NCBI RefSeq assembly: GCF_020921035.1
Contig: NC_063157.1
Coordinates: forward strand, 5,080,501-5,144,500
Length of the DNA stretch: 64,000 bases
Source: Rhodamnia argentea
Lineage: Eukaryota; Streptophyta; Magnoliopsida; Myrtales; Myrtaceae
Reading direction: 5' to 3'
Shown: positions 30,778-64,000 of the stretch, in pieces
How positions within the stretch are numbered: position 1 is the stretch's first letter
How the letters are laid out: every line of letters begins with the position of its first letter
Made by a program: the position numbers and the translations under genes
The notes under the pieces: generated by a model
What the model was told of the DNA's origin: nothing
Databases searched by the model: none
Seen by the model: the letters and a program-made list of their open reading frames with translations, nothing else

Positions 30778-33700
30778 TTAGGTCTTGACTTCGTGGTGCA
30801 TCAATGGCTTTTGCTCCTTCGCAGGTGACTTCCTCTTTTTCTTTCCCGTCTTTTTCTTCTTGATGTGCATATTTTCCCTCCTTTTGAACACCGCCAAAAC
30901 TTCAATGCTGAAATCACAATCTCATCATTTAGACAGCTTACACGTAAAACAAACACGACCGCTAGACAAGACGTCATTACGCTGCATGTGTTAAGGATTC
31001 CAAAGGCAGGCAGCTTTAACCCCGAAGCTTATGCTATTCTTGGGAGACCTAAGAGAGAGGAAAATGGTTGGATAACACCCCTAGTTTAAATTTTCCCTCC
31101 ATATCTTTCTCATTGACATAATAAGATTTGCACAATTTTTTGGCCCAATTTCCATTTCTCCACTTTTCACCCTTTCCCAAACAGAGCCTTAAAGTTTCTA
31201 AAGACAATAAGCCACACCTCTGGTTCTAATACAAACACATGAAAGTGTAAATTTTAAAACCTTCCCAAGTCAATCCTCATAATCTGGGAAGACTATTTGA
31301 CTAAGGTAGAACATTCGGAGTACGTTTGTGGCTTAGACCAGCTCAACATATTATCGCATACAATTTCCGTATGATGTTAACATTTCACTTTTTTACCAAG
31401 AATCTTGCATAATTTCAGAGAAGCGTCAATCCAAAACCAAGACAAACGTTTCTCTAGATCTTTGAGAACAAGACATCATAATTGGTATCTCAATCTAAAT
31501 TTTACGATCATTGAACCGCTGCAGACAAATTTCAGGTTCAAATCTGAGTAATTCCCGACTACTTGCTAAAGATGTACGACCACAATTCAGAATGTCAGCA
31601 ACTTTCATACGATATAAGTGAGGCCAATGTTAATTCAACATAGCTCCTGAATCATGCAAAGCTACAGGATTGCAATATGAGGGGACTAATACCTTTGTGT
31701 GCCAGGGAAAAAGTTAAATCCATGGGCTTTTTCCAAATGCCATGCCTTGCAGGACAGCAATGAGTTACAGTCCTGTAAATTATTCGCTTGACATCAGCTC
31801 CTCAAGTTATTTAGATTTCAGCTTATAAGAAAGCAAACTAAGCACCAAAGCTGCACTTCAGTCTCTTAACTGCAATTTACCTCCTTAAAACTTTCCCAGC
31901 CACAGCTTATGTAGATAAGAGTTTGAGGCACTGAGTCACGGTTTTCTCGAGTTAAATCATTTCCAACTCGAACAGAAGCTTCCCTAGCACGAAGTACCCA
32001 TGGTCTCTTTTCTTCTTTTGTCTTGGAACTAATACCAAAGACAGTACAGAAGGAGTGGAAGGCTGAGACTCTTATTTTTGTGAAGATATCGATTGATCAT
32101 GTAAGAGACCAAAAATGTCATGCCTTGATGCAAAGAAAAGCTAAAGATAAGACCCTACCTTTCAGGTGATGATCTAGTTTTCAGTTCCCGTGATGGAAGG
32201 GTCTGCAATGCACCCACCACGGACGTTTCTAGTCCTTTTCTAGGAGGATCAACAACAATCACATCTGATCCCACAAGCCAAGAAGTAGGCTCCTGATTCG
32301 ATTCCAACAAATTAGTGAGAACACACCACTCTATTACACTCTCAAGTCTGAAGAGGATTTACATAGATATATATCTCCCAGTGAATAGTAATCTATAGAT
32401 AAATATCCCCCAGTGAAAAGTAATTTTCCACGCAAAATGGATATAAAAGTCATCAAGTCGACAAGATTGATTAACAATAACATCAATGAGATTCTTTTTG
32501 GGGACTTACAACTGAAGTGTCAGCTTGATACCAACTGATGCTGCTATCCACATATTTTGGCAGGCGTTCAACTGTCTTTTCAAAAGACAACTTGGATTCT
32601 TTGTTAATTTCTACACATTTTACAGACCTGGAAGAGATGAATTACAAATTTGAAAGCCTTTTCAGAATTAGAACGAACAATCTGGAGCATTTAACGGAAA
32701 GGGGAAACCAGCTAGAAAACTGAAAGAGAACTCTGGATTCTTGCCTGCATTTTCTTGTAGCAGCCAAGGACAAGCCAATGACGCCAGATCCTGCATATAA
32801 GTCAGTAACTGATGCACCATAAGGAACATACTTCTGTAACTTTCGGAGCAAAGAATCAAAAGCCTGAAGATGACCAAAGAAACATTATCATTACCAAGCA
32901 TCGGTTACGTGAATTTCGATTAAAAGGGGATAGACTCTCTATTCTGAATGAACAATCTATTTTCATCCATATGCAACTGGGTTTGCATGAATTATCACAT
33001 GGGGCCAAGATCCTGAGCACATCAACACATGTCACTCAAAAGTTTTCTTGGCTATCAAAGAAGATGGTTGAGCGAGATAGAATCGAACTCCAAAATTGCA
33101 TTCCAATCATAATGCCAATTTCAAGAACATGCTGCAGTCAATGCTAAACTAACATGACATTTGATGCTATCCGGCAAAACAAGCAACTTGACACCAGCAT
33201 GGTAAATGCAATTTTGTGTTAAACTAACAGTAGGTTAATATTGATGTTTTTCTGTTAGTACGGCTTTCTAGGGTGGGAGATATGTCTAACCCGCGTATTT
33301 GCTTGGCCAAAACTGGATGGAGCCAGTGAAACATCAATGCCTCCAAGGTGTTCCCAGAAGTCCCTATCACCCAGAAGATGTCTCCACCTATTCCCGAAGA
33401 TTACCTACACAATCAAATGCACCACAACTAATAAAAAGACCCACTTGTCCTAGAAGGATTGAATTGAAAGGTACATTTAGTCACAGGATTAATTAGCATT
33501 TCATGTTATTAGCATGACGCCATAACCACATTCCTTGTCAGTCATTTAGAAAACATTAAAAATTCAAGCAGTTAGCTACCACTCACATTGCTAGTTGACG
33601 TCTGAAAATTGGCCCACACAGAATGTATTAATGGGACTTTGCACTTTGACCCACTATTTCGCCATAAAAACTGCAGATGGATAAAGAAACACATTTTACT

Positions 33701-35174
33701 GGCTAATTATGATATGGTCCAGTAAGAGCAAAATGAAGAAAGAGAATTTGGCAGCCTCACATGAGCCAAGGCATTCAGCTTATATGAATTGGGTGAATTT
33801 TCATTTCGAGCATTCCAAACTAGAGCAACCTGAACCCGACCTATAAATAAGTTAAGTTTCGAATTGTGAATGCAATTTGCACACCAAAAACTTATAGAAA
33901 GTAAAAAAATGAAAATTCAAACTAAGTAGACAAGAAGCAAGTTCAGATCCATACCACGTTGGTATCTTTCCGAAGCGGGAATAGATGTATTGTATGTCGT
34001 CACAGCCATCTGGCAGAAGCACAAGAACACATAAGTCACTGATTACTAGCACAAATAGAAACTTAACAAGATATCCCCAGTAACAAAACACTACCTGCAC
34101 GTAGCGCAGATCACCTGTCCCTCGATCCTCGTCATGTGGTTCTATACCTAACTCTCTGATTCCTGTTAACAATTTCTCTCGCGGGATAAAGTAAGTACGT
34201 AATGTTCCAGAAAGCACACCAAATCTTTAGACATCATCAGCAAAATATACCTTGCTTTAACAGTTCCATGGCAGCATTAATATTCGGATGATGAGCTGCA
34301 AGAAACAAGCAAAATAAGGCATTAACCGCACCACCATTGCCACTAGTTCCATCCTTGAGGCCAATTTTGCTCAAACCAGTTCAGAACTTCATTTTTCATG
34401 CTCCGACTTGCGAACTGAGTACCTTTGCAATTAGGGATGTCCACCACACTATGCGTGCCCTCCTCATAGAGTCCAATGAGAGGATCCGCCGATGAGCCGC
34501 GAACTGCCAACTTTGCACGGCATCTCCACCCCCACTGCACCAGACACACAGCGAGAAATCAATCGAAACTAAGGCTGCATAAGCTGAAAAACCACACCAA
34601 TACGTCAACTCAAATTGAGAGAAGAAGAAGGCAAGCTTACAAGCTTGCAACTATCGAAAGTGAAATCCGAGACACCTAAGCTCTTGAAGAAATCGACGGC
34701 ATCGTCAACGACGCTCGGACGGTCGAGGTTCAGCTCGTGAGTACAACCTGAGCACCTGCATATTCAAGCGAACCAATACTATGAAATAACAAGAATTAAG
34801 GTGCAAAAGAAGCGCAGTTGAGACCGACAAGAACACACGAGCGTTCACATACTCGCGCTCGTGAAAATCCGAGTGATATTAATTCGACAATCCAGCAAAT
34901 ACACGGATTTATTGACAAGAACACCACGAAATGAAGCGAGTTGCGACATTTGAAGAGAAAGAAGGAGAACTAAGGAAAAGAGTTGGCGTGCGTACGATTG
35001 GAAGTGAGGACACTGGAGTGCGCAGGTCGGTGCGGGCGGCGAGGTCGAGGCCGGACTCAGACCGAGAGAGGCCGGAGCGAGTGGCGGCGGGAAGCGAGGC
35101 GCTGAGGCGGCAGGAGAGAGGTGGCGGGAGGTGATTGGGTGGAGGAAGCGAGAGGAGAGGAGGCACAGTGACAT
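30778..35174 (-). CDS. RNA (uracil-5-)-methyltransferase family protein (TrmA/RumA-like), 15 exons
   Basis: Exons in transcription order: 35174-34996, 34755-34641, 34534-34423, 34295-34251, 34162-34095, 34009-33955, 33840-33761, 33670-33587, 33404-33291, 32863-32745, 32627-32510, 32292-32159, 32028-31881, 31772-31693, 30907-30778. Phases agree; total 526 aa. The first ~60 residues are Ser/Pro/Ala-rich, probably a plastid targeting peptide. A CxxC pair (CSGC) follows, placed like the Fe-S cysteines of RumA. SAM motif DLYAGSG is at 305-311, motif DPPRKG at 378-383, and the presumed catalytic Cys in YISCGW at ~450. 'PSSFGQANTRAFDSLL' matches the family's Gln-containing motif. The tail is Lys-rich. 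It resembles Arabidopsis At3g21300; enzymes of this class make m5U in rRNA or tRNA. The actual RNA target is not visible. Intron 10 has a GC donor. This is the intact parent of two downstream fragments. Confidence 0.94.
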
Positions 35175-35881
35175 CAGTGAAGCTGGGCGAGCGCAACGGA
35201 GCTTCGCTGCATGTGATTTCGACCGGAGTGGATAAAATGGAGACGATGCATATCTTCGACCAACGACCGGGTCGGGTAACAGTTCGGGGCTTCGGGTTAA
35301 ATTTAGAGTCGGGCCAAGGATGGAGGGTCCGGAAGCTAATCGGGTTCTAACGGATTTCGAACCTGCTCGATTCCTAAGCATAAAAGTCAATAGACTCATG
35401 GGCTCCGCGAAGAATAAGTAATCTAAAAAACATTTTCTTAAAAATGATAAATTATATAACTTTAAAATTTAACTAACAAAATATATTTTTATTACTGACA
35501 ATAATCAATGACTTAATATTTGCATATATGATAAAAACATTTTTCGTTTATTCATTTTTACGAGTAATATAAGTAATATTTTTTTAAATTATTTATTTTT
35601 CATGAAATAATAGAATTAGTAGAAGATCCTACGGGATTCAGACCAGAGTCTGAAGTAAGCTTGGGCTCTGAGGAAGGAAAAAAAGTGAACCTTCCATGGA
35701 ATTCAGTCTTCTCTTATTGCTCAAATCTCATTTCATAGACAATACCTGAAGCATATGCAGTATGTTCCTTATCTCACTGTAAATAACCGCTCCATTCTTA
35801 AGATGTCTAATGATGTTATGGAAGACAGCTTCGAGGAAGCACTGAATTCAAATCCCTGTAAACATGCCTGCATAGTGCATT
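35175..35881. other. RMT upstream region and AT-rich spacer
   Basis: The RMT promoter side (35175-35345) is conserved at ~40271-40440 and ~54902-55085 in the two later units. From ~35410 to 35620 the DNA is AT-rich without a recognisable element. The downstream copies carry about 0.6 kb of extra DNA at the matching place, including a MITE-related segment. Confidence 0.6.
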
Positions 35882-36897
35882 CTAGCCTCTCCCACTCGCG
35901 CCGAGTGCTACTAGCTTGTTCTTCATCCTGTCCGCGAAACCCTAGTAAGCCTCTCTCCAGGACTTCTTTACGATCAAAGTGCCATAGACGCCCAAGAACC
36001 CGACGAAGAAACCGAGCCCGATGCTCGGGAAGAGCCAGAAATATTCGAGATCATTGTCCCCCTCTTCGCTTTCGCTGTTTCCGCCGCCATCGTCAGGAGA
36101 TTGTGGCTGTTTCTCGTCTCCCAGGCATAACTCGGGCAGTGGAAACCCACAGAGGCCGGCGTTGCCCTCATGAGTAGATGGGTTGTCGATGGTCTGGAAC
36201 TGGTTGGCCATCGGGATTTTCCCAGACAGGTCATTACATGACACGTTCAAGTGATTCAGCTTTGTTAAAGCGGTCATGCTCAGAGGAATCGGCCCCGAGA
36301 GATTGTTGCTCGATAAGTCGAGTCTCTCCAGCCATTCCGAGTTCCCAATGTCGATCGGTATTTTTCCGGTGAGATGGTTCATGGACAAATTCAAGGTCCC
36401 TAACCTCACGAGGCTCACTAACGCTTCAGGAATCTCCCCGGACAAGAGGTTGTCCGAGAGATCCAAACTGTTCACGAGGTAAAGAATGCTTTGATAAACC
36501 TTCCTGTGGTCACCAAGGATGCTTGACCCTCGCACCTCACCTTGTCAGCATCCAAGAGCTCCAACTTCAAGCCGGTGAAGTTTCCGATGCACGGCGGGAT
36601 CAATCCTGACAAGCTGTTGTGCGAGAGGTCTACCATGTGGAGATTTGAAAGACGGCATATCTGAGGGGGAATTTCCCAGTAAACGAATTGGACCGCAGGC
36701 GCAAAATCAGCAATGAAAGAATGCTCTCTACAATCCATGCGGGAATGTTCCCCGATAAGTTGTTCTCACCTAGATCGAGACTGTCCAAAGAGCTGCAGTT
36801 CCGCAAGGAGGACGGAAGTTCACCAGAGAGATTGCTGTCACCGAGTATGAAGAACCTGAGATAGGAAAGGAAGCCAACCTCGCCCAGTATTGGAACC
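35882..36897 (-). pseudogene. EIX-type receptor-like protein, truncated 3' fragment
   Basis: It corresponds to the C-terminal third of the 992-aa RLPs at 42128 and 56798: the last LRRs, the island region, acidic linker, membrane span and tail. The 5' two thirds and the promoter are gone. Homology stops near 36897, continues as ~100 bp of unrelated sequence, then resumes with DNA that in the intact copies lies upstream of the gene. The remaining part has a nonsense codon in the cytosolic tail (TAC to TAG at the second Tyr after SWREA) and small deletions that shift frame near 36490 and 36670. It is the most decayed of the three RLP copies. Confidence 0.9.
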
Positions 36898-37750
36898 GCA
36901 GCATTTGCAGCCTACACCGGAGTCCATTCACCACTGCTGACACAGTTCAAATTTTTCACTGCACTGCTAATGAAGACCTCGACTACCTCAAGTCGTTGTG
37001 ACTTGATCGGAAAGGAAGTCCCTCAGCAGTTGCACTTCCTGGACAATCCAATAGGACGACCGCGGCAGCACGGCACGACCTCAAGAGGTCATTTCTCGTA
37101 GAAGTCCTCACGTCCTCTTTCACTCTCGTATTCTTAAGAGCTTCGTCTCTGCTCATGCATCCATGTCATTGCCTCGGCCTGAATGATAAAATCATTCTTG
37201 AATCTTCTCTCTCGAATTGACCTTGAGAGCTCATTTCAAATTGAAGCCAAACTCCTGACCTCGCTTCCTAAATCGAAAATTGCCGTGCTGTTTCATCAGC
37301 TCAATAGATCCACCAGAGATCAGTCCACTACTATATCTAACCCCAAAAATTTAGCCATTGTTGTTCATGGGTAATGAAGCAAGAACTGTGATTTTGCCTA
37401 CTCCGGCTCTTCGATTGTACAGGGGTTTTACTTCTTACTAACTGCCACTGATGGTTGTCATCAGAGTTGAACCACAGTAAAAGCCAGAGGACAAAAATCC
37501 CTTCAAGGAGATTCTCCTAGAAAGTGCATTAGCTTTATCTAACCCTAACCAACTATTCAACATAAGAGTTTCCTTCACAAATAACTGATGCAAGTCGCTA
37601 ACTGCAGTTTTTTATACACTTTGTTTCAGGACTTTCATTATAATTGAGACTAAATTAGGAGACTCCCTCTATTTCCATATGTATGAGACCATAATTAAGG
37701 GCAATTACCCCAATTAATAGCCGGTCAAACGAATGTCTGCTCTTCAAGGA
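36898..37750. other. Spacer between RLP fragment and UKL fragment, unit 1
   Basis: From ~37010 it aligns with the RLP upstream DNA of units 2 and 3 (~46255-46375, ~60930-61050). From ~37190 it aligns with the UKL 3' flank at ~61410-61910. No gene of its own. Confidence 0.6.
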
Positions 37751-39153
37751 TCAGTTGTCAGTGCCAAAGTAATGATCACCGAACTCGCCCATACCCGGAA
37801 TAACATGAAGCTCTTCATTCAACGCATCATAAATCTCTGAAGTCACAATTTTCAAGGAGGGAAATCTTTTGGAGACGCAATGAATTCCTTCAGGAGCCTG
37901 CAATTATGGCAGCAGTAGGATAAGCCGAACTTGATTCGCAATAAACTGCAGTAATTACCATTATGAAAAAAAAACCACTCACAGAGATGAGATTCAGCAA
38001 TATTATGTGGGACTCTGGAACTCTTTTCAGTGTTAGTAGCTCGATTGCTTGGTTAGCCATCAGATAAGTACATCCATCATTGCCATGCATAAAATGAATG
38101 CGAAGAAAGCATACTAGCATTGTCTAGTTGCGTCAGCTGCTGTTATCAATTTCATCAGCTGCAAATGAGCTTGTGGGTTGTCAATAGATTCGAAACCCTT
38201 TATAGGAATTCCAACTGCAGAAAAGGCAAATTAACTAACATTCTTCGAATCATTTCACCTATTCCTGATACACAGTTCTTGGCACATAAAGTTGGCAAGC
38301 TCCTTGGGCATCCAAAAGTTCAAGAATCTGTCAGGGATGACATGATCTGTAGTTAAGTGTAGCTAGAACCGGATCTAGCAGCAAAACATGACGTTCAGAT
38401 ATATCCTTGGGAAGCTTCTCACATAAGCTGCTCAAAATACATCCAGTGCACCACAGATCACACACAGAGAAGTGAAATGTCCCCATTGACAAGAAAACAG
38501 ATGGCAACTAAGGCTTTGTTTATTTCATGGAAAATAGATAAGTTGGAAAACCTTTTCCCACAAAAATTAACTTGTATTGCTTACGAAAATAAATGAACGA
38601 AAAAAAAAAATTCATTGTCCATGAAAATGTTTAGACGTAAATTGTTGTCGATAATGACAATAATTTTCATTGACTAATTATTTCAAGCGATATACGCGGT
38701 CATTTTTAGGAAAATGTTAAACAATTCATTCATTTACCGCGAAACAAATGGATCCTAAGAGGAAGATATGTCAAATGGAGAGGCACATGCACTTGTTGCC
38801 CATTGTCTCCATCTCGGTGGATCAGAACTTGTCCAATTTTTATCCCTTTGCAGCAAGCACATAATGCATTTTCCATGCTCTCTCCCTTACACAGATAGAG
38901 AATATCCCAGGCATTAAATCAGCATTAGTTTGACATAGATAAGTGCAGGGCAACAATAAGCATGCTAAACCTAACCATTAGTGCATAATGAATATCCATC
39001 TTCACTAGTAACCTTGTAAAGAGAGGTTATGGTGTTTGAAATGGCAGGAGAGCTGAAACTAGACGTATGTGAGAGGCAGAGGAAGTAAAAAGGAGTGCGC
39101 AAAACAGCCTATATTTTTCTTGAAGATTCAGTTCAAGGTAAGCCCTATCTTGA
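37751..39153 (-). pseudogene. UKL (uridine kinase-like/UPRT) 3' fragment, unit 1
   Basis: Remnants of the last four exons of the UKL gene at the right edge: the terminal exon (37897-37751, still ending in GEFGDHYFGTDN and a stop), the 'PESHIILLNLIS' exon (~38070-37985), the PRPP-loop exon (~38437-38365, LLLDPVLAT) and the 'GESMENAL' exon (~38882-38790). The exon before these is missing because the unit ends in the intron. Splice donors are altered after the PRPP exon and replacements have accumulated. With no 5' kinase half it cannot make the enzyme. Confidence 0.87.
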
Positions 39154-40270
39154 AATTGGCCCGCACAGAATATATTAATGGGACATTGCGCTTTGACCCG
39201 CTATTTTACAATAAAAGCAGCAGATGGATAAACAAACACATTTTACTGGTTATCAAGGTGTGGTCCAGTATGAGCAAAATGAAGAGAGAGAATTCGGCAG
39301 CCTCACACAAGCCAAGGCATTCGGCTTATCAGAATTTGGTGAGTTTCCATTTCGAGAATTCCAAACTAGAGCAACCTGAACCCGACCTATAAATAAGTTT
39401 AGTTTAGAATTGTGAATGCAATTTACACACTGACAAACTTAATAGAAAGTTAAAAACTGAAAACTCAAACCAAGTATGCAAGAAGCGAGTTCAGATCCAT
39501 CCCATGTTGGTATCTTTCTGAAGCGGGAATAGATGTATTGTACGTGGTCACAGCCATCTAGCAGAAGCACAAGAACACATAAGTCACTGATTACTAGCGT
39601 AACTACAAACTCTCAAGATATCCTCGATCCTCGTCATGTGGTTCCATACCTAACTCTCTGATTCCTGTTAACAATTTCTCCCGCGGGATAAAGTAAGTAC
39701 GTAATGTTCCAGAAGGCAAACCAAATCTTTAGACATCATCCACAAAATATACCTTGTTTCAACAGTTCCATGGCAGCACTAATATTTGGATGATGAGCTG
39801 CAAGAAATAAGCAAATTAAGGCATTGACCGCACTGCCATTGCCACTAGTTTCATCCTTTGAGGCCAATTTTGCTCAAACCAGTTCAGAACTTCATTCTTC
39901 AATGCTCCAACTTGCTAACTGAGTACGCTTGCAATTAGGGATGCCCACCACACTATGCGTACCCCACTGGTAGAGTCCAATGAGAGGATCCGCCGATGAG
40001 CCGCGAACAGCCAACTCTGCACGGCATCTCCACCCCCACGGCACCAGACACACAGCGAGAAATCAATCCAAACTAAGGCTGCATAAGCTGAAAAACCACA
40101 CCAACACGTCAACTCAAATTGAGAGAAGAAGAAGGCAAGCTTACAAGCCGGACTCAGACGGAGGGACGCCGGAGCGAGTGGCGGCGGGAAGGGAGGAGCT
40201 GAGGCGGCGGGTGAGAGCTGGCGTGAGGTGACTGAGTGGAGGGAGCGAGCGAGAGGAGGCACAGTGACAT
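39154..40270 (-). pseudogene. RMT 5' fragment, unit 2
   Basis: It aligns with exons 8 (part), 7, 6, 5, 4, 3 and 1 of the RMT at 30778-35174. Exons 9-15 are absent because the unit begins in exon 8. Exon 2, with part of exon 1 and the intron between, is deleted (near 40145). About 35 bp around the exon 5 donor is also lost (near 39622). The former start codon corresponds to 40270. It cannot encode a methyltransferase, as the SAM motif and catalytic Cys lie in the missing part. Confidence 0.88.
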
Positions 40271-42127
40271 CAGGTGGAGGTGGGCGAGCGCAACGGAGCT
40301 TCGCTGCATTTGATTTTTGGCCGGAGTGGAAGCGAACCAAGAATATCGTCGGCTAACGACCGGGTCGGGTAACCGTTCGGCGCTTCCGGTTAAATTCGGA
40401 GCCGGGTCTAGGATGGAGGGTCCGGAAGCTAATTGGGTTATCTGACCCGCCCGATTCCCGAGCTACATGTCGCTTGCCTCTTCCAAATAGGCTCAATTCT
40501 GTAGCATTTATCTTGCTTTTAAACGAATTACTTACCAATTTCTATTTACATACATCGATTTCACGTATGTTAATTTCGCAGTGTGGTATTTGTGGGTTTC
40601 ATGAGCCTACTTAACAATTCCAAATGCTTACAAATACATTTATAGATTTTACCACAAACTTAAGTAAATTAGGAAGTCTGTGCTAAAAAATGGACAAAAT
40701 AGTATAAATATATTGGTTTGTGAGTCTTTTTTTTTTTTGTTGCAACTGAGGGTTGCAATTCTAATCATATGTGCATGTTTTCAAGTATATATACTTTCAT
40801 GGGCACTACATGGGGGGCATATATATCATTTACATTGATATTTAATTTCAACCAAATAATGGATTAGACAAGATATGAGAATATCCGACTTTAAATCTGT
40901 AATTAACCAAACAGTGAATCGGATATGATAAAATCCTTGGGTTTCTTATCCTATCCTATTTAGTCTTATTCCGATTAAAAATCCGGACGATTAAATGCAG
41001 CCTAAAAGTCAATAGACTTATATCCTACGCTTGCTAGTTAGAATTAAATTTAGGACAAGATAATTTTATCCCCATTTTGTGTTTGGTGATTTATCCTATT
41101 CTATATTTGGTGCGTACTCAAAATATAATAACATCGGATATAGGAGAGATAAAGCCCGAATAAAATTGTGGTTAGGATTTATAATATCCCATAATACAAA
41201 AGTCATTTTTATCAAAAAACAAACTTCTCAAAACATAATATTTGAATTTCAATATAAAAATTCTCAGTATAACGAAAAAATATTTTTATCAATTCTTATT
41301 TTTATTTATATATTCGACTTTCTTTTCGTCTTATAAAATTAGTTTAATATATAAATATTATAATATTTATATTCATTACATATTTTAGGTACATTAGTGT
41401 AGTTTAATAATTAATAAATTTTTATTAGAGATTGATGGAAGGGGAAAAATAATTTTAAAAAAGAGAGGGGAAAATATAATTAAAAACAAGCAAATAAACA
41501 TGAAGTACGCAAGATTGTCCACAGAGATTCTTACCAATTTGTGCGAGTTTTAGGTTCATTTACTTATATATGACGTTTATATCGAATAATAGACATGTTT
41601 ACGTTCATTTACATTTATGTGACGTTTATACCGAATACTGGATAGTATCCTAAGGATATAACAAAATAGTGACAATTTTTTTTTTTTATCTATTGTGAGA
41701 TTGATATTATGTTTGTGAGCCACAAAAACTAGATCATAAATAATTTAAAATTATTATGGGTCCACTCCTTCAAGTCAAGGTCACGCAAAAAATGTTATGC
41801 TAAGAAAGTCTTAATAAAATTTCCGTATTTCAAATTCGACCATATTTAGTGCTATCCCGATTAGAAATCTCGACGATAGCATATAGTCGTACAAAATCCT
41901 GCCGCCCTAAATCTCAAGATAAGCTTAGATTCTCATATAGAAAGAAAAAAGTGAGATTTCCATAGAATTCGGCCTTCCCTTGCTGCCCAAAACTCATTTC
42001 CTTGACGATGCGTGAAACATATATGCATGCTGTAAATAACTGCTACATTCCTAAGATGTCTAATGATGGTATGGAAGCAGATCTATTCGAGCACTGAATT
42101 CAAATCCCTGAAAACATGCTTCGCATA
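40271..42127. other. AT-rich spacer between RMT fragment and RLP, unit 2
   Basis: Nearly the same as ~54902-56797 in unit 3. It begins with the RMT promoter homology, then includes a MITE-related segment (~40780-41003), a second block with 'TATCCTATTC'/'GGATAGTATCC' words (~41050-41900) that may be another decayed member, and the RLP 3' flank. The small frame at 41079-41336 is AT-driven and has no domain. Confidence 0.55.
40780..41003 (-). mobile_element. Partial MITE related to 16157-16684
   Basis: Its reverse complement runs GGCTGCATTTAATCGTCCGG, then 'GGATAGGATAAGAAA', 'AAAGTCGGATATTCTCATAT' and 'AAATGATATATATGCCC'. This follows the first ~230 bp of the element at 16157 in order. The opposite end is not found, so it is a fragment or was overwritten. 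The copy at 55440-55660 is its tandem duplicate. Confidence 0.65.
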
Positions 42128-45106: not shown

Positions 45107-45232
45107 TGTTGCCAGGCAAAAACAAGAGCAAGACGAAAGGAGGGTAGTCTCGGAAGGTCCAGATTAGCTTTGCTTAGACATGTATAGTGGACTAGTGTCG
45201 TCCTACAATGCAACGTGAGGTGTCGTCCATTG

Positions 45233-45303
45233 TTAGTCTTGACTTGACTTGACCTTGAGTGGATCTCATCATTAGTCTTGACTTGACTTGACCTTGAGTG
45301 GAT
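45233..45303 (-). promoter_or_regulatory. Tandem W-box cluster upstream of RLP copy A
   Basis: Two 32-bp repeats at 39-bp spacing (45233-45264 and 45272-45303) each contain TTGACTTGACTTGACC, that is three overlapping-phase TTGAC cores. Six WRKY-type W-box cores therefore fall within 71 bp, about 127-197 bp above the ATG. Clustered W-boxes are the usual target of WRKY factors in plant defence genes. The function is inferred; only the sequence pattern is seen. Confidence 0.6.
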
Positions 45304-49877: not shown

Positions 49878-50159
49878 TGTTGGAGCTGTGTCCCAGTGCT
49901 GCTGCTGTTTTTCTTGTCGTTTTAGTTCCTTTTTTTTCTGTTTTGCAGTCAAGTTTGATTTGTTAGGTAGTTAGTTTGTTAGCTATTTTCTAGGAAGTGG
50001 AACAAGTCAGTTTTTGCACGTTTGTGTGCAGTTCAAAACATGTTCCTATTAAGCTTGTAATGGACAGTTTTTCAAAGTTAAGGTTTTTAGTCTTCTATTC
50101 CATCTCTCTCTGTGCAAACAGAAAATTTGTGATAGCTGATTTTTTCATCAGCTTTAACA
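49878..50159 (+). repeat. 5' LTR of the Copia element
   Basis: 282 bp, beginning TGTTGGAG and ending TTTAACA, with TG...CA ends. It carries the promoter of the element. Confidence 0.93.
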
Positions 50160-50160
50160 G

Positions 50161-50172
50161 TGGTATCAGAGC
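50161..50172 (+). promoter_or_regulatory. Primer binding site, initiator tRNA-Met type
   Basis: TGGTATCAGAGC, one base after the 5' LTR, is the usual complement of the 3' end of plant initiator methionine tRNA in Copia elements. Confidence 0.92.
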
Positions 50173-53100: not shown

Positions 53101-54203
53101 TCTGTATGGACTCAAGCGTGCTCCAAGAGCTTGGTATGGAAAGATAGACAGATATCTGCAGGATTTTGGCTTTGTAAGAAGCTTGAGTGAGTTCACTCTT
53201 TATGTCAAGAAGGTGAATCACAGTGTTGTAATTCTGTCACTCTATGTAGATGATTTGTTGGTGACAGGGAATGATATGGAACCGATAGAGAGGGTGAAGC
53301 AAGGGTCTGCTTTGCGGCTTTTGAGATGTCGGCCTTGGGAAAGATGGCTTATTTTCTAGGTCTGGAAATCAAACAAACTTCACATGAGATTTTCATCCGC
53401 CAAAAGAAATACATGAAGGAAATTTTGAAGAAGTTTCAAATGGAAGATTGTAGAAGTGTCGGCACTCCTATGGTCGCTAAGGAGAAGCTGCAAAAGAATG
53501 ATGGAACAGAAGAGATGCTTCAATGTATAGAAGCTTGATTGGATGTCTCATGTATCTTATAAAGCAACTAGACCGGACATTCTATTTGCTGTGAGTGTTT
53601 TATCTAGGTTCATGAGTAGTCCTAGTCGGTTACATTTGGTCGCTGCAAAAAGGGTCTTGAGATACATCAAAGGAACATTGTTCTTTGGTGTGAAGTTTAG
53701 GAAAGGCCAGAAGTTTAAGTTGCGGGGTTTTTCCGATAGTGACTGGGCTGGCTCAAGAGATGACATGAAGAGTACATCCGGGTACTGTTTCACTCTTGGT
53801 TCCGCTTGTTTCTCTTGGTGTTCCAAAAAGCGGGAGATTGTAGCTCATCCACCGCAGAGGCTGAGTTTATAGCGCCACTTTTGCAGCTGCAAATCAAGTT
53901 TTGTGGTCAAGAAGATAATGAAGGATCCGTGGTTGAGTTCTGGTGATTGCATTGAAGTTTATGTGGACAATCAGGCTGCTTTAGCAATATCACGTAATCC
54001 AGTTTTCCATGGAAAAACCAAGCATTTTAAGATCAAATTCTTCTTTCTACGTGAAGTGCAACAAAGTGGTGAAGTTAAGTTGGTTTATTGCAAATCGAAG
54101 ATCAGCTTGCGAGACATGTTTACAAAGCCACTTCGGGTTGAAAGATTTGAGCCGTTAAGGGAGAAAATTGAGTTTGCAGCAAGAATCGATCCAAGGAGGA
54201 GTT

Positions 54204-54482
54204 TGTTGGAGTTGTGTCCCAGTCTTTGCTGTTTTTCTTGTCGTTTTAGTTCTTTTTTTTTCTGTTTTGCAGTCAAGTTTGATTTGTTAGGTAGTTAGTT
54301 TGTTAGCTATTTTCTAGGAAGTGGAACAAGTCGGTTTTGCACGTTTGTGTGCGGTTCAAAACAGGTTCCTATTAAGCTTGTAATGGACAGTTTTTCAAAG
54401 TTAAGGTTTTTAGTCTTCTATTCCATCTCTCTCTGTGCAAACAGAAAATTTGTGATAGCTGATTTTTTCATCAGCTTTAACA
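54204..54482 (+). repeat. 3' LTR of the Copia element
   Basis: 279 bp, about 97% identical to the 5' LTR by eye. A purine run (AAGGAGGAG) directly before it is the likely polypurine tract. Confidence 0.93.
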
Positions 54483-54901
54483 GTTTCATCCTTTGAGGCC
54501 AATTTTGCTCGAACCAGTTCGTAACTTCATTCTTCAATGCTCCAACTTGCTAACCGAGTACCCTTGCAATTAGGGATGCCCACCACACTATGCGTACCCT
54601 ACCGGTAGAGTCCAATGAGAGGATCCGTCGATGAGCCGTGAAATGCCAACTTTGCACGGCATCTCCACCCCCACTGCACTGCATACACAGCGAGAAATCA
54701 ATCCAAACTAAGGCTGCATGAGCTGAAAAACCACACCAACACGTCAACTCAAATTGAGAGAAGAAGAAGGCAAGCTTACAAGCCGGACTCGGACGGAGGG
54801 AAGCCGGAGCGAGTGGGGGCGGGAAGGGAGGAGCCGAGGCGGCGGGTGAGAGGTGGCGTGAGGTGACTGAGTGGAGGGAGCGAGAGGAGGCACGGTGACA
54901 T

Positions 54902-56797
54902 CAGGTGGAGGTGGGCGAGCGCAACGGAGCTTCGCTGCATTTGATTTTTGGCCGGAGTGGAGAAAATGGAGATGGTGAAGCGAACCAAGAACATCGTCGG
55001 CTAACGACCGGGTCGGGTAACCGTTCGGTGCTTCCGGTTAAATTCGGAGCCGGGTCTAGGATGGAGGGTCTGGACGCTAATTGGGTTCTCTGACCCGCCC
55101 AATTCCCGAGCTACATGTCACTTGCCTCTTCCAAATAGGCTCAATTCTGTAGCATTCATCTTGCTTTTAAACGAATTACTTACCAATTTCTATTTACATA
55201 CATCGATTTCACGTATGTTAATTTCGCAATGTGGTATTTGTGGGTTTCATGAGCCTACTTAACAATTCCAAATGCTTACAAATACATTATAGATTTTACC
55301 ACAAACTTAAGTAAATTAAGAAGTCTGTGCTAAATAACGGACAAAATAGTATAAATATATTGGTTTGTGAGCCTTTTATATATATATATTGCAACCGAGG
55401 GTTGCAATTCTAATCATCTGTGCATTTTTTCAAGTATTTATAGTTTCATGGGCACTACATTGGGGGCATATATATCATTTACATTGATATTCAGTTTCAA
55501 CCAAATAATGGATTAGACAGGATATGAGAATATCCGACTTTAAATCAGTAATTAACCAAAATGTGGATAGGATATGACAAAATCCTTGGGTTTCTTATCC
55601 TATCCTATCTAGTCTTATCCCGATTAGAAATCCGGACGATCAAACGCAACCTAAAAGTCAATAGACTTATGTCCTACGCTTGCTAGTTAGAATTAAATTC
55701 AGGACAAGATAATTTTATCCCTGTTTTGTGTTTGGTGATTTATCCTATTCTATATTTGGTGCCTACTCAAAATATAATGACGTCCGATATAGGAGAGATA
55801 AAGCCCGAATAAAATTGTGGTTAGGATTTATAATATCCCATAATACAAAAGTTATGTTTATCAAATAACAAACTTCTTAAAACATAATATTTGAATTTCA
55901 ATAAAAAAATTCTCAGTATAACGAAAAAATATTTTTATCAATTCTTATTTTTATTTATATATTTGAATTTATTTACATCTTATAAAATTAGTTTAATGTA
56001 TAAATATTACAATATTTATATTCATTACATAGTTTAGGTATATTAGTGTAGTTTAATAATTAATAAATTTTTATTAGAGATTGATGGAAGAGGAAAAATA
56101 ATTTTAAAAAAGAGAGGGGAAAATATAATAAAAAACAAGCAAATAAACATGGAAGTATGCAAGATTGTCCACTGAGATTCTTACCAATTTGGGCAAGTTT
56201 TAGGTTCATTTACATAAATGTGACGTTTATATCGAATAATAGACATGTTTACGTTCATTTACATTTATGTGACATTTATACCGAATATTGGATAGTATCC
56301 TAAGGATATAACAAAATAGCATATGCTTATGTGACAATTTTTTTTTTTTTTATCTATTGTGAGATTGATATTATGTTGTGAGCCACAAAAATTAGATCAT
56401 AAATAATTTAAAATTATTATGGGTCCACTCCTTCAAGTCAAGGTCACGCAAAAAATGTTATGCTAAGAAAGTCTTAATAAAATTTCCGTATTTCAAATTC
56501 GACCATATTTAGTGCTATCCTGATTAGAAATCTCGACGATAGCATATAGTCGTACAAAATCCTGCAGCCCTAAATCTCAAGATAAGCTTAGATTGTCATA
56601 TAGAAAGAAAAAAAAAAAAAGTGAGATTTCCGTAGAATTCGGCCTTCCCTTGCTGCCCAAAACTCATTTCCTTGACGATGCGTGAAACATATATGCATGC
56701 TGTAAATAACTGCTACATTCCTAAGATGTCTAATGATGGTATGGAAGAAGATCTACTCGAGCACTGAATTCAAATCCCTGAAAACATGCTTCGCATA
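54902..56797. other. AT-rich spacer between RMT fragment and RLP, unit 3
   Basis: A near copy of 40271-42127 with small indels in poly-A/T and TA runs. It includes the duplicate MITE fragment at ~55440-55660. No gene. Confidence 0.6.
55440..55660 (-). mobile_element. Partial MITE, duplicate of 40780-41003
   Basis: The same order of words as the unit 2 copy, ending in GGACGATCAAACGCAACC, which is slightly closer to the intact terminal repeat of the element at 16157. It was copied with the segment rather than inserted anew. Confidence 0.65.
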
Positions 56798-59776
56798 CTA
56801 GCCTGCCCGACTCGCGACGAGTGCTACTAGCTTGTTCTTCATCCTGTCTGCGAAACCGTAGTAAGCCTCTCTCCAGGACTTCCTTACGATCAAAGGGCCG
56901 CAAACGCCCCAGAACCCGACAAAGAAACCGAGCCCGATGCTCAGGAAGAGCCAGAAATAATCGAGATCATCGTCCCTGTCGTCGCTCTCGCTGTTTCCGC
57001 CGCCATCGTCAGGAGACTCTGGCTGTTTCTCGTCTCCAGGGCATAACTCGGGCAATGGAATCCCACAGAGGCCCACGTTGCACTCGTAAATCGCTGGGTC
57101 GTTGAAGGTTTGGAACTGGTTGGCCGTCGGGATTTTGCCTGAAAAGTCGTTGTACGACAGGTTCAAGTGATTCAGCTTTGTTAAATCGGTCATGCTCAGA
57201 GGAATCGGCCCTGAGAGATTGTTGCTCGACAAGTCGAGAGTCTCCAGCCATTCCAAGTTCCCAATGTGGATCGGTATTTTTCCGGTCAGATGGTTCATGG
57301 ACAAATTCAAGGTCCCCAACCTCACGAGGCTCGTTAGCCCTTCGGGAATCTCCCCCGACAAACGGTTGTCCGAGAGGTCCAAACTCTTGACGAGGTAAAG
57401 AATGCTTTGACCATATTGAATAAATCTTCCTTTGGCCACCAAGGTCAAGAATCCCTCGTACCTCACCGAGTCAGCATCCGTGAGCTCCAATTTCATGCCC
57501 GTTAAGTTTCCGATGCATTGCGGGATTGATCCTGTCAAGCTGTTGTGGGAGAGGTCTACTATGTGGAGATTCGAAAGATGGCATGTCTGAGAGGGAATTT
57601 CCCCAGTAAAAGAATTCGACCGCAGGCTCAAAATCAGCAACGAAGGAATGCTCCCTGCGATCCATGCCGGAATGTTTCCTGAGAAATTGTTCTCGCCTAG
57701 ATCGAGACTGTCCAAAGAGCTGCAGTTCCGCAAGGAGGACGGAAGTTTGCCAGAGAGATTGTTGTCACTGAGTATGAAGAACCTGAGAGAGGAAAGAAAG
57801 CCGACCTCGCTCGGTATTGGACCCGAAAGGCTATTGTTCGACATGTCGAGAATCCACAGCAAGGACAAGCTGCTCCAGAACCGCGGTATTTCTCCTGATA
57901 GGAAGTTGTTGGAGATAACTAAGGTTGTCAAATTGGTCATATTCCCAATGGACAAGGGAATGGTACCATTTAGGCCATTCCCAGATATATCTAAATCTGT
58001 CAGGCAAGGCATCAGTTCACCGATGTTGGGAGGAATGGGACCCGAGAAGCGATTATCTCTGAGATACAGTGTGGTCACGTTGGAAGACCAGATAGGAAGA
58101 GGACCTTCGTAGAGGTTAGAACTCAAGTCGACATTAGACTGGTCATCTACAAACAACAGCGAGGTGGGTGGCTCGCCGGTGAGTCGATTATATGCGACGT
58201 CTAGTTCATCTAATTGCAGATTCATCTGCAAGAACCAATCGGGTATGGTTCCTGAAATGTTAGCGTTGTTCAACACCACGGTCTTGAGGTTGTTTTGATT
58301 CCTGAGCCAAGTAGGAAACTCGGGACCCAATTGGCAAGACCTGATGTTAAGGTACCTGAGCTTGAAGGGAGGAATCCAATCAGGGGCTATCTTGAATGCC
58401 AAGGAAATGTTTGGGGAGGCTTTATTCAAATCAAGTTGCTCGAGGCTCGAGAGGTTTGCTAGGTGACGCTCTGTCACGACTCCTTCCCACAAGTTCTCGG
58501 AGAGTGCCGCTGCGGCCAGTGTCGACAGTTGCCCGAAACTTTCAGGAATCCCACTCATCCTGTTGTGGGTAACGCAAAGCTCTTTCAATGACGAGTTTCC
58601 AATCGACTGTGGAATGGAACCTTGAAATGAATTCTGCCCAAATTGGAGGTACCTTAGCCTCTTTAATTTTCCTAGAGAATCTGGCAAATTACCAGACAAC
58701 CTATTGTCCCACAAGTCCAGATTTTCCAACTTGCTATCGTTGCATCGAGCTAACCCGTCAATAGAATCAGTTATCTCACCAGTGATTCTATTGAGAGAAA
58801 GGATTAGGACACGCAAATCACATAAGCTCCCCAAGGATTTCGGAAGCCAACCTTCGAGGTACGAATTCTGGGACATGTCGAGTTCTTGTAGGGATGCTAA
58901 ATTAGCAAATTCATCTGGAAGCTCGCCCCCGAGATTATTTGAGTTTAGATCAAGACACAAGAGGCGAGTGAGATTGAACAGCCACCGAGGCGATGTAGAG
59001 TTGAAGTTATTGTTCGAGAGATCGAGGACCTCAAGCGATGTGACATTGATGAATGGAAGAGAAAGAGGAAGCTTTGACAGGAAACAGTTGGGCAAGCGCA
59101 ACTCCGTGAGAGAAGGTAGCGAATTGATAGCTCGAAGCCAATAGTCTGCGGCTTTACTGAGATCAACGGCTCCAAGATTAAGGTATCTCAGGGAAGAAAG
59201 CCCAGGAAGCCAGAGAAGATCGTTTTGGCTCGTTTCGGCAAAACAATCGCTGAGGTCCAGATACTGCAATCGCGAAAGGTTCCCGAGACTCGGAGGAATC
59301 AGTCCGCCGAAAGACGCGCCCGATAGATTGAGGTATCTCAGCTGCTTTAGCGAACCAATGAATCTGGGGATTTTGGTGCCTTCAAAATTGTTCATGCTCA
59401 AATCCAAGTAGTTCAACTCTTTTACATCGAGCAGAGAAGGACTGATCTCACCCCCCAGAGCTTGTCCCGGCTTGAGATCGCCGCTTAGATCATCACCCAC
59501 ATACGGGTTGTGGAGGTTAATCTCGACCACTCGCCCAGTCAGGTTGCTGCATACAATTCCTCTCCATTTGCAGCAGTCTTTCCCGACCCACGAAGCGAGC
59601 CGGCCCGAAGGATCCGTGAAGCCACCTTTCAGCTTGGTGAGCGCTTCTCTTTCGCTTGCGAAGCAACCTGAAGCGATTCCCCAAGTGGAAAGCGCGAACT
59701 TCACAGTTCCAGGAAATGGAAGTCCTGATAGGACCAGGAGAGGTAGAAGCTCAATGAAGGAGATCTTACGAGCCAT
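56798..59776 (-). CDS. EIX-type leucine-rich repeat receptor-like protein, copy B
   Basis: A single-exon, 992-aa RLP, the same length and domain order as copy A: signal peptide, Cys cap (DCCKWRGIVC), LRR array, island (~760-805), last LRRs, acidic linker (here DDRDDDLDY), membrane span ~940-964 and short tail. I count about 38 amino-acid differences from copy A and no gap. Many lie in or beside the variable 'xxLxLxx' positions of LRRs. Copy B gains or loses cysteines relative to A at several places: it has LCVTH, MPCL and YECN where A has LSVTH, MPGL and YEGN, and it has DISGN where A has DICRN. Such unpaired cysteines are unusual in secreted LRRs. The promoter repeats match copy A. It is a recent tandem paralogue; the function is presumed to be immune recognition at the plasma membrane. 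Confidence 0.95.
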   Translation of the reverse strand: MARKISFIELLPLLVLSGLPFPGTVKFALSTWGIASGCFASEREALTKLKGGFTDPSGRLASWVGKDCCKWRGIVCSNLTGRVVEINLHNPYVGDDLSGDLKPGQALGGEISPSLLDVKELNYLDLSMNNFEGTKIPRFIGSLKQLRYLNLSGASFGGLIPPSLGNLSRLQYLDLSDCFAETSQNDLLWLPGLSSLRYLNLGAVDLSKAADYWLRAINSLPSLTELRLPNCFLSKLPLSLPFINVTSLEVLDLSNNNFNSTSPRWLFNLTRLLCLDLNSNNLGGELPDEFANLASLQELDMSQNSYLEGWLPKSLGSLCDLRVLILSLNRITGEITDSIDGLARCNDSKLENLDLWDNRLSGNLPDSLGKLKRLRYLQFGQNSFQGSIPQSIGNSSLKELCVTHNRMSGIPESFGQLSTLAAAALSENLWEGVVTERHLANLSSLEQLDLNKASPNISLAFKIAPDWIPPFKLRYLNIRSCQLGPEFPTWLRNQNNLKTVVLNNANISGTIPDWFLQMNLQLDELDVAYNRLTGEPPTSLLFVDDQSNVDLSSNLYEGPLPIWSSNVTTLYLRDNRFSGPIPPNIGELMPCLTDLDISGNGLNGTIPLSIGNMTNLTTLVISNNFLSGEIPRFWSSLSLLWILDMSNNSLSGPIPSEVGFLSSLRFFILSDNNLSGKLPSSLRNCSSLDSLDLGENNFSGNIPAWIAGSIPSLLILSLRSNSFTGEIPSQTCHLSNLHIVDLSHNSLTGSIPQCIGNLTGMKLELTDADSVRYEGFLTLVAKGRFIQYGQSILYLVKSLDLSDNRLSGEIPEGLTSLVRLGTLNLSMNHLTGKIPIHIGNLEWLETLDLSSNNLSGPIPLSMTDLTKLNHLNLSYNDFSGKIPTANQFQTFNDPAIYECNVGLCGIPLPELCPGDEKQPESPDDGGGNSESDDRDDDLDYFWLFLSIGLGFFVGFWGVCGPLIVRKSWREAYYGFADRMKNKLVALVASRAG

Positions 59777-59902
59777 TGTTGCCAGGCAAAAACAAGAGCA
59801 AGACGAAAGGAGGGTAGTCTCCGAAGGTCCAGATTAGCTTTGCTTAGACATGTATACTGGACTAGTGTCGTCCTACAATGCAACGTGAGGTGCCGTCCAT
59901 TG

Positions 59903-59973
59903 TTAGTCTTGACTTGACTTGACCTTGAGTGGATCTCATCATTAGTCTTGACTTGACTTGACCTTGAGTGGAT
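59903..59973 (-). promoter_or_regulatory. Tandem W-box cluster upstream of RLP copy B
   Basis: The same two repeats as at 45233-45303, again with six TTGAC cores and 39-bp spacing, at the same distance above the ATG. The surrounding sequence differs at single positions, but the cores are all kept. Confidence 0.6.
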
Positions 59974-61915
59974 GTCATGAAGACATAACATAAGCAAGTA
60001 AAGCGTCATTGACCGGGTCATCTAAACCATTCTTGTTTTCCCCTTGTCCGGGACACATTATGAATCTGTAGACTGGGATGACAAGTTCTGGCGGACTATC
60101 GGAAAGATCGTACGTTCCTCGCCCATGTTCTCGAAAGTCGTGAGAATTTGATAGCTCGCTACGAGGTCCACCGAGTTAAGCCGACCACGCCGCGGATTTG
60201 GAGCGCAATGAATCGAGTCTGCATAACCACATATATATATTCCCATTCACAGCTTATGTCCTGGGAGAGGCAGTCGTCGACGGTACATGAATCACAAACT
60301 CTGCAAGTGAAAGCGATTGCATGTGGACGATGATGGCGTTGGACAAAGGGAGTGGATGGTGGTCGAGACGCGCCCGGGCTCTTTGAAGGGGGTTGACTTT
60401 TAAGATTCGTCAAGTCTTCTCTTGGACCGTTTCACAATGGGCATTTTCTTCTCGAGCTTAGGCGGGCGAGAGCTCGGTCGAAGAAGTCGTTTTCGAGAGA
60501 GAGAGAGAGAGAGAGAGAGAAGTTTGGGGGTTTGGATCTAATTGGAGAAGGAAGGAGGCGTTCCTCGAAATCGCAGTGGAAGAAAGTGACTTGCTCGTGG
60601 GGACAGGACATTCACATTGAGAACGAAATATAGATCTGCTAGGAAGTGGTCTAAGTCGTCATATCGTAATCTCTACGTTTGATAATAGCCAGAAAATTAT
60701 CACAAAAAAATATATAAAAATCTTAAATCTATTGCATTAGTACCAATTCAGTCCTAAATTTTTCAACTTCACCAGTTTAGTCTTAAATATTTTGACGATT
60801 TGCCAATGTAATCCTTTCGGCCAATTCTATTAGGAAATCACCGAATGCTCTACACTGAATGAACAATTTCTTTATGGATTTTTTTTAAAATTTCTATATT
60901 TTCGACAATGAAACCAAGTCATGGTGACTCGTTTTGGCAAGGAAGTTGTTCCATAGTTGCACTTTCTAGACAAGCAGCACGGCACGACCTCAAGAGGTCA
61001 TTTGTGGAACGCCTTGTCAAAGCCCTCACGTCCTTTTTCACGTTTTCTGTTGATCCGCCAAAATGAATCATCGACCCATTTCTTAACCAATATTTGCTGG
61101 GCTGAATTGCTATATGTATTATTTGTACTCAATAAATGGGTCATAAATTGCTTGAAAATGGTCATGCCCGAAATAATACGGGCATTAAATAAATTCACAA
61201 TTTATTTAGACTCGATCTCGCGCTCACTTTATTTCCGCTTTGAATATGCATTTTCCTACATTCGGTTGAGTACAGCAATGTTTTAGCAATACGGATTAAG
61301 TCGGATATAAGTCAGATAAAAATTAGTCAATTTGGTTCGAACTGTTTTCAAGCGACTCAAACCCGACCCACCGTCTTACGAATCTACTCGGCCAGAACGA
61401 TAACTTCATTCTTGAATCTTCTCCGGACGTGACCTGAAGAGGTCATTTCAAATTGAAGTCAAACTCATGACCTCGCTTCCTAAATCGAAAATTGTCATGC
61501 CGTTTCATCGGCTCAATAGAATCTTCAGAGCTTAGTCTGCTACTATATTTAACCCCAAAAGTTTTATCCATCGTGGTTCAGGGGTAATGAAGCTAGAACT
61601 GTGCTTTTGCCAACTCCGGCTCTACAATTTTTCAGGGGTTTACCTTTACTAGCTCTCAGGGTATCGTCTAAGTCGAACCACAGTAAAAGCCGGTGGAGAA
61701 AGATCCCCTCAAGGAGATTCTCATAGAAAGTGCATCAGCAAACTTTCTGATGCAAGTCGATAACTGCATTTATTTACAAACTTAGTTTCAGGACAGTTTG
61801 ATCGTAATTGGGACTAAATGAGGAGAACCTCCTCTATCTCTGTATGTATCAGACCGTAATTAAGGGCATTTAGCCCAATTAATAGCAGGTTAAACGATGG
61901 TCTGCTCTTCAAGGA
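59974..61915. other. RLP upstream region and UKL 3' flank, unit 3
   Basis: Up to ~61315 it is the duplicate of 45304-46659. After that it is the UKL downstream flank, kept in part at ~37190-37750 in unit 1 and deleted in unit 2. It contains a GA microsatellite at ~60496-60520. No other gene seen. Confidence 0.6.
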
Positions 61916-64000
61916 TCAATCGTCAGTACCAAAGTAACGATCACCGAACTCACCCATACCCGGAATAACACGAAACTCTTCATTCAGCGCAACATCAATC
62001 TCGGAAGTCACAATTTTCAAGGAGGGGAATCTTTTGGAGACGCAATGGATTCCTTCAGGAGCCTGCAGTTATGGTAGCAGTAGGATAAGGCAAACTTGAT
62101 TTGCAATAAACTGCAGTAATTACCATTATGAAATATAAAAAAAAAAAACACTCACAGAGATGAGATTCAGGAATATTATGTGGGACTCTGGAACGCCTTC
62201 CTGGATGAGTAGCTGGATCGCTTGATTAGCAGAATTACCTTCCAAAATAGCAAGTACATCCATCATTGCCATGCATAAAATGAATTTAAAGAAAAGCATA
62301 TTAGCATTGTCTAGTTGCATCAGCTGTGCTGTTATCGATTTCGTTAGCTGCGAATGAGCTCTTGATTTGTCAATAAGATTTGAAACCCTTCACTGGAATT
62401 CCAACTCCAGAAAAAGACGAATTAACTGACATACTTCGAATCATTTCACCTATCCCTGATACACAGCTCTTGGCACATAAAGTTGGCAAGGAATTAAGGA
62501 TCTATAACGCAGACCTCCTTGGGCATAAAAAAGTTCAAGAATCTTTCAATGATGACATGATCTGTAGTTACCTGTAGCTAGAACCGGATCTAGGAGCAAA
62601 ACATGACGTTCAGATATATCTTTGGGAAGTTTCTCATATATAAGCTGCTTAAAATACATCCAGCGCACAGATCACAATCATAGAAGTGCGAAGTTCTCAT
62701 TATCAAGAAAACAACAGGCAACTAAGGCTCTCTTTGTTTCCCGAAAAATGGATAATTTGGAAAACATCTTTCTAAAAATAATCGCTTGTATCGCTTTCCA
62801 AAATGGACGAAAGAAAAAAAAATTCACCATCCACGAAAATGTTCAAACATAAATTGTTGTGGAAAACATTTTTCATTGATTAATTACTTCAAGCAAAATA
62901 AGTGATCATTCTTAGAAAGATGTTTTTCAAAGCATTTATTTGCCGTGAAACAAAGGGAGCCTAAGAGGAAAATACGTCAAATGGAGAGGGACGTGGACCT
63001 GTTTCCCATTGTCTCCATCTCGGTGAATCAGAATTTTTCCAATTTTTATCCCTTTGCAGCAAGCACGTAATGCATTTTCCATGCTCTCTCCACTAGACAG
63101 ACAAAGAATATCTCAGGCATTAAATCAGCATTAGTTTGACATAGATAAGTGCAGCCCAACAATAAGCATGCTAAAAATAACCATTTGTGCAAAATAAATA
63201 TCCATCCTTGCTAGTAACCTCGTAAAGAGAGATTATGGTGCTTGAAATGGCAGAAGAGAACTGACACTAGACATTTGTGAACGGTAGAGGAAGTAAAAAG
63301 GAGTGCGCAAACAGCCCTATCCTTTTCTTAAAGATTCAGTTTAAGTTGAGCCCTATCTTGATGAAAAGATCCATTCAATTAGAAACCAGGATCGAAATCT
63401 GACAGGTGCTAATCAATCCATGTAATCTATCTTTTTGCTTGCACAAATTCTCTCTAAGAACTAGTACCTTAATCAAGGCTCACCTTCGAACAATAGAAAC
63501 TCCACATAATTTCTTGCAAAAATCAACTCCAGTATATAATGATCCTGAAACCACATAATCAGAAAAAGTGTAAGTAAGAAAAATGTCATGATTTTCCAAG
63601 CTTTGAGCCACTTAAAATCAAACACAAGCCAATGAGCTATAACTATCCAGACAAGCAAATACTAGCGGAACTAGTTTTGTCACCTCTGTGACAGCTTCCT
63701 CTTAATTCCATATTCAAACCAGCACAATGACAGATTAATACAGATTAAGAGGCCGATACCTGTTGGAGTAACCACTTGTTTCTCAGTAAATGGCAAATGA
63801 CCAAGCCCATGCTCTACCACCTGAAAATCAAGTTTAATAATGGAGTTCTGACAATTCCAATGCAGGGATGGTAAAACCTGTTTGCAATTCTACTCATGGA
63901 GGTACCAGCCGAATAAGTCGATCAGAATAGAAGACAAAATCATGCTTTGATATGTCGCGATCTCGAATCAGTGTGTGCATGCCTCTTATCTGGGAAAAAC
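61916..64000 (-). CDS. UKL: Uridine kinase-like protein (UKL), UPRT domain, 3' part
   Basis: Partial: the 5' exons, including the kinase half, lie beyond the right edge. Exons in the window are 63989-63906, 63820-63760, 63544-63484, 63092-62999, 62644-62572, 62238-62156 and 62062-61916. All are GT-AG and in phase, giving 200 residues to the stop. Seen in order: '[14 protein letters not shown]', '[20 protein letters not shown]', '[17 protein letters not shown]', '[20 protein letters not shown]', the PRPP-binding loop [12 protein letters not shown], '[14 protein letters not shown]', and the terminal '[17 protein letters not shown]'. This is the C-terminal uracil phosphoribosyltransferase-like domain of plant UKL proteins, closest to UKL3-5 by the '[15 protein letters not shown]' ending. 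Plant UKLs salvage uridine; whether this domain has UPRT activity is disputed for the family. No damage seen. It is the parent of the two UKL fragments to the left. Confidence 0.93.

Follow-up and report, generated by a model that had tools for sequence, protein, structure and literature searches.

A three-unit receptor gene array very probably built by two nested tandem duplications of different age

The RLP gene array in the window, which is the whole analysed stretch of 64,000 bases, contains no N and is of plant origin judging by its genes, very probably grew by two nested tandem duplications, an old one followed by a young one, with distinct end points and with illegitimate joining at each. 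The boundaries, the order of the events, the gap in divergence between them, the broken genes and the insertions are read from the sequence. In the direction of transcription the genes are ordered UKL, RLP, RMT, all on the minus strand; these labels were taken over from an earlier, sequence-only reading of the same DNA. That reading had explained the array by one block and one model. We found instead two events that differ in divergence and in end points, and the junction at 47666/47667 is no copy of the first.

Layout of the array and its genes

Using self-BLAST of the window, we found long collinear direct repeats with common sharp ends, which confirms that the tandem array proposed by the sequence-only reading is real. 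The repeats form two layers. In the old layer, 33606-39152 matches the later units with 81-91% identity, depending on the piece; its left end is found at 33606 = 39153 = 49188 and its right end at 39152/39153 = 47538/47539 = 63360/63361. In the young layer, 38743-47671 matches 47667-63493 with 95-97% identity when two insertions and one deletion are set aside. At the four boundaries, 150-bp tests with 200 shuffles each gave similarity z values of 22 to 30 inside and of -2.4 to -0.4 outside, and chance can therefore be rejected as their cause. The features are listed below.

30800-35174, minus strand: RMT, a RumA/TrmA-like RNA (uracil-5-)methyltransferase gene by resemblance, about 15 exons, apparently intact
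33606-39152: unit 1 (O1), with the RMT 5' half, a truncated RLP and a UKL 3' fragment; the probable left product of the old duplication (self-BLAST and boundary tests)
35885-36893, minus strand: RLP remnant of unit 1, matching the intact receptor at residues 653-992, spread over three frames
37173-39152, minus strand: UKL 3' fragment in unit 1, with exons d-g
38512-38755: Tourist-like MITE of 244 bp, flanked at either end by TTA, inside UKL intron d-e of unit 1
39152-39153: old junction, UKL intron joined to RMT exon 8; repeated at 49187/49188
39153-40439, minus strand: RMT 5' fragment of unit 2
39153-47671: unit 2, part of the young duplicated block 38743-47671 (self-BLAST)
42128-45163, minus strand: intact RLP of unit 2, a single-exon gene of 992 aa with its ATG at 45106
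45223-46060, minus strand: 835-bp tract upstream of the unit 2 RLP, identical in unit 3
46657-47671, minus strand: UKL fragment in unit 2, comprising exons d and e and the last bases of exon c
47666-47667: young junction, 5-bp microhomology
47667-49187, minus strand: repeat of the unit 1 end, comprising 410 bp of UKL sequence that includes exon d, interrupted by the hAT-like insertion
47832-48932: hAT-like element, 1.1 kb, inverted ends, unit 3 only
49188-55089, minus strand: RMT 5' fragment in unit 3, interrupted by the Copia element
49878-54482, plus strand: Copia LTR element, 5-bp target duplication GTTTC, unit 3 only
56798-59833, minus strand: intact RLP of unit 3, 992 aa
61916-64000, minus strand: UKL, C-terminal uracil phosphoribosyltransferase (UPRT) half, with exons a-g forming a single open frame; its 5' part runs past the window end

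The left end of the old block, 33606, falls within RMT exon 8 (33587-33670), and the right end, 63361, lies in the UKL intron between exon c (63484-63544) and exon d. Both locations had been predicted correctly; the second pair of end points, 38743 and 63489-63493, had been overlooked. The whole RMT gene claimed for the left end appears to be present as well, with exons 1-13 splicing to a single open frame of 457 aa, while exons 14-15 and the left limit were placed by eye. RMT resembles RumA/TrmA RNA (uracil-5-)methyltransferases, as judged from its match to NCBIfam TIGR00479 rumA (E 7.5e-32, positions 57-385 of 432, 110.7 bits, below the bacterial cut-off of 183.55) and to RNA methyltransferases of the PDB (E 1.3e-14). 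No uracil-methyltransferase family was found for it in Pfam at E up to 0.001; the Pfam matches were to the general methyltransferase families Cons_hypoth95 (25.1 bits, cut-off 24) and MTS (under the cut-off). UKL does occupy the right end, but only its C-terminal half lies within the window. This half contains a UPRT domain (Pfam PF14681, E 1.5e-74 over 200 aa; PDB UPRT, E 1.7e-70), and the N-terminal uridine-kinase-like domain would fall outside the window.

Three receptor genes had been proposed. Two of them are intact, but the leftmost is a truncated remnant, in which LRR matches are present, the front part is missing, and two frame changes and one stop have accumulated. Comparison of the unit 2 and unit 3 receptors over the stop-to-stop frame, stop included, showed 38 differences in 1012 positions. 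Both receptors carry the LRRNT_2 and LRR domains of Pfam expected of an RLP, and no kinase family was detected in Pfam at E up to 0.001. By eye, the translation has a hydrophobic start and a hydrophobic stretch near its end. The closest solved relative is PDB 7drb (E 3.9e-168, three stretches), which we take to be RXEG1. The RLPs may be plant immune receptors. The dN/dS between the two receptors is 0.54 overall and approximately 1 in the middle LRR part (43148-44155, minus strand), where 20.5 nonsynonymous and 6.5 synonymous differences were counted and the amino-acid change per site equals the silent change. These counts are too small to claim diversifying selection on the two receptors.

Ordinary neighbour genes were also seen in the window, namely a cytochrome P450 gene (3595-5214, plus strand), an FIGL1 N-terminal domain (11355-11891, minus strand), genes for a SWIB domain protein (13361-15040, minus strand) and a kelch protein (17581-18909, minus strand), and ribosomal protein S21 (27141-27575, plus strand).

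Order and joining of the two duplications

Tripling of a single block would give identical joins between units 1 and 2 and between units 2 and 3. Since the joins differ, two events have to be assumed rather than one. Unit 3 has the old junction (49187/49188), preceded by the new junction and 410 bp of the end of unit 1. Within this 410-bp tail, all 29 deciding (two-against-two) sites place the copied tail with unit 1 and join units 2 and 3 to each other, and none speaks for other groupings; 32 further variable columns and 6 gap columns are uninformative on the grouping. The K2P divergence of the old layer is 0.142-0.159 outside the RMT segments and 0.094-0.140 within them. For the young layer it amounts to 0.021-0.054 over six segments, the two flanking ones being highest (0.047 and 0.054). 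Overall, units 2 and 3 differ at 295 of 8,908 aligned bases (3.3%). This divergence is uneven, ranging from 0 to 7.5% per 400 bp, so that the age of the young event is uncertain; our reading is that the most divergent young segments give its true age.

Both joins have the form of illegitimate (microhomology) tandem joining, with sharp-ended direct repeats whose joined ends lack long homology. At the old join the overlap is 1 bp, and 44.5% of random joins reach at least as much, which is no more than chance. The young join has 5 bp, and a microhomology of at least 5 bp has P 0.006 among random joins in the region. Its left break, 38743, lies 410 bp to the left of the old junction, in the UKL intron d-e of unit 1 and at the 13th base from the MITE end; its right break, 63489-63493, falls within the final bases of UKL exon c, about 130 bp to the right of the old end. 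A junction within homologous repeats in constant register, as in an NAHR array, was not observed: 410 bp are doubled out of register. Neither join is a homologous exchange. For the young join, the natural reading is microhomology-mediated end joining or a replication template switch as the probable repair pathway.

A single event that gave three equal copies of the RMT-RLP-UKL block, later partly homogenised, as the earlier model had it, would fit the ends 33606 and 63361, which are common to the units by homology. Nevertheless, we regard it as very improbable, because a new junction and an additional 410 bp of the unit 1 tail lie at the boundary between units 2 and 3, the old layer is about three times or more as diverged as the young one, and the sites stand at 29 to 0 for two steps. 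It is even harder to believe that the third unit arose from ordinary unequal crossing over between homologous parts of units 1 and 2. Direct repeats for this were available at the second event; today one pair of about 2 kb is 81% identical and another of 850 bp 84%, and both were more alike at that time. The young break points miss the register of such an exchange by only about 540 bp. However, the junction sides are unrelated outside the 5 common bases (z -1.2 and -0.4), and a homologous crossover gives neither such a junction nor a doubled 410-bp tail.

The 3.3% difference between units 2 and 3 would also be in line with two haplotypes of a heterozygous plant that were misjoined in the assembly at 47666/47667. 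We consider this unlikely, as the window has no N and the overlap at the join is 5 bases, which is too small for an overlap assembler. Moreover, such a misjoin would leave the old duplication (approximately 16%) unexplained. Two successive duplications, the second nested on the first, are thus the reading which we prefer.

Three of the four break points fall within a UKL stretch of approximately 540 bp. The clustering on the UKL side has P 0.0086 if three points are placed uniformly over a length assumed to be 10 kb; this test was chosen post hoc and omits one of the four breaks. This stretch surrounds the MITE, which is found in three units with 235-244 bp, inverted ends and TTA flanks. A TTA/TAA target duplication together with inverted ends and short length is what we take to be the mark of a Tourist-like MITE (PIF/Harbinger). 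Being present in units 1, 2 and 3, the element predates the old event. Its palindrome has 97-nt arms with 73% complementarity in unit 3 and a self-match of 68% over 249 columns in unit 2 (self-BLAST), and in unit 1 only short arms were found at the settings used. DNA folding of 301 bases of unit 1 gave z -2.67, with 2 of 100 shuffles equally stable, which lends weak support to hairpin formation at the MITE. Quite speculatively, and with a small probability in our own estimate, the UKL stretch around this old MITE might be a recurrent break site that drove the growth of the cluster. The second event would then be a mispairing of UKL copies on sister chromatids, with homology serving for the pairing, finished by the 5-bp microhomology join at the hairpin-forming MITE end.

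Decay, insertions and sequence exchange

The broken RMT and UKL pieces described between the receptors were recovered, with deletions, lost splice sites and a stop. Each of the RMT fragments in units 2 and 3 shows deletion of most of exon 2 and of the ends of exons 1 and 5; the donor site of exon 6 and the acceptor site of exon 8 are lost, and a stop in exon 8 was read from the alignment. The RMT exon deletions are common to the fragments of both units and can therefore be dated between the two events. The UKL fragment of unit 1 has lost the acceptor of exon d, 2 bp in exon e and the donor of exon e, and the start of exon f is missing. Loss of the exon d acceptor is common to unit 1 and the copied tail and thus predates the young event. 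The UKL fragment of unit 2 has no exons f-g owing to a deletion of about 1.15 kb at 46656/46657, which is not found in units 1 or 3. Like the two insertions, this deletion came after the duplications.

A 1.5-kb stretch that is present in units 2 and 3 and absent from unit 1 contains a dispersed repeat (40815-41005 and 55464-55654). Its counterpart at 16154-16344 is in the opposite orientation and 76-81% identical.

Insertions of Copia and hAT type had been named in the sequence-only reading, and a Copia element and a hAT-like element are indeed present, in unit 3 only. The empty sites of both are present in unit 2, indicating that unit 2 never had them; they are hence most likely younger than the young event. 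The Copia LTRs have a K2P of 0.025 (standard error 0.010), which is below the two most diverged young segments (0.047 and 0.054) but not clearly below the RLP and left segments (0.021-0.027). As the LTR divergence is similar to that of the RLP and two young segments, it is the empty site, rather than the clock, that dates the Copia element. For the hAT-like element, an 8-bp target duplication gives symmetric ends, and 9 bp is also possible. This element may hold captured host sequence. C- and G-rich short tandem repeats were seen in it at 48044-48384.

The tract upstream of the receptors, with 835 bp, is the longest clean run between units 2 and 3; shuffles gave a median of 178 and a 95% point of 254. 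Recent gene conversion between the units is the likely explanation and the best fit, with strong constraint on non-coding DNA or a local assembly collapse as alternatives. Rfam gave no match at the gathering score in the whole window, and the tract is thus without a known RNA family at this score.

Taken together, the ancestor would have had a single copy of the minus-strand UKL-RLP-RMT trio. The old duplication would have copied the block from RMT exon 8 (33606) to the UKL intron (63361), after which RMT exon sequence would have been deleted from unit 2. At some point the front of the RLP would have been lost from unit 1. The young duplication would then have taken unit 2 with a sliver on either side. 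Later, gene conversion may have exchanged sequence between the intact receptors. Meanwhile the RMT and UKL pieces probably decayed and gained the hAT-like and Copia elements.

Comparison with known clusters

Receptor clusters are often said to expand by unequal crossing over. In the present array, both growth steps ended in joins with almost no homology, despite the homologous repeats that were available at the second step. The truncated neighbours serve as date stamps, so that the order and relative age of the steps can be read from one sequence.

Fragments of neighbouring genes lie between the Hcr9 genes. The Cf-4/9 (Hcr9) RLP cluster of tomato is named in the available portion of PMC7202015; neighbour-gene fragments were found neither in that portion nor among the open-licence matches listed. 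It is likewise an RLP cluster, which differs in its receptors and neighbours and is likened here without a comparison of junctions. RXEG1 (PDB 7drb), a membrane LRR receptor-like protein and the best solved relative of the RLPs, comes from a different species.

According to the accessible sections of PMC3113787, the SH3 disease-resistance cluster of coffee grew by duplication, with gene conversion between paralogues. A figure legend marks truncated genes at the locus, flanking non-R genes are also drawn, and the authors state that the duplication edges are unrelated to mobile elements. As far as these sections go, SH3 resembles the present array in its growth by duplication, its truncated genes and the gene conversion that is likely here too. 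In contrast, SH3 consists of NLR (CNL) genes, whereas the present array consists of RLPs, has two junctions resolved to a few bases and has one break in a MITE end.

For the EPSPS locus of Kochia scoparia, the excerpted text of PMC6808082 describes growth in successive steps whose repeat units differ (56.1 and 32.7 kb), with co-duplication of neighbour genes. There, the shorter unit was proposed to derive from microhomology-mediated repair at a mobile-element end, and the first step was ascribed to unequal crossing over between two mobile elements. To the extent of that excerpt, stepwise units, microhomology at a mobile-element end (as proposed for EPSPS) and co-duplicated neighbours are common to both arrays, but EPSPS is a herbicide-resistance gene and its first step is attributed to unequal crossing over. 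Partial and chimeric gene duplicates, in which duplication ends inside genes leave truncated and fused copies, are reviewed in PMC3449122. Going by the extracts from this review, the present array has such truncated and fused copies, while the class is a general one with data mostly from worm, fly and yeast.

Among the open-licence matches listed, none was seen to report an RLP cluster whose microhomology joins had been dated. For an RLP, the array combines features described for SH3 and proposed for EPSPS. It cleanly illustrates a known process rather than a new type of system, is compact enough to serve for teaching, and suggests a local break site as an idea that can be tested.
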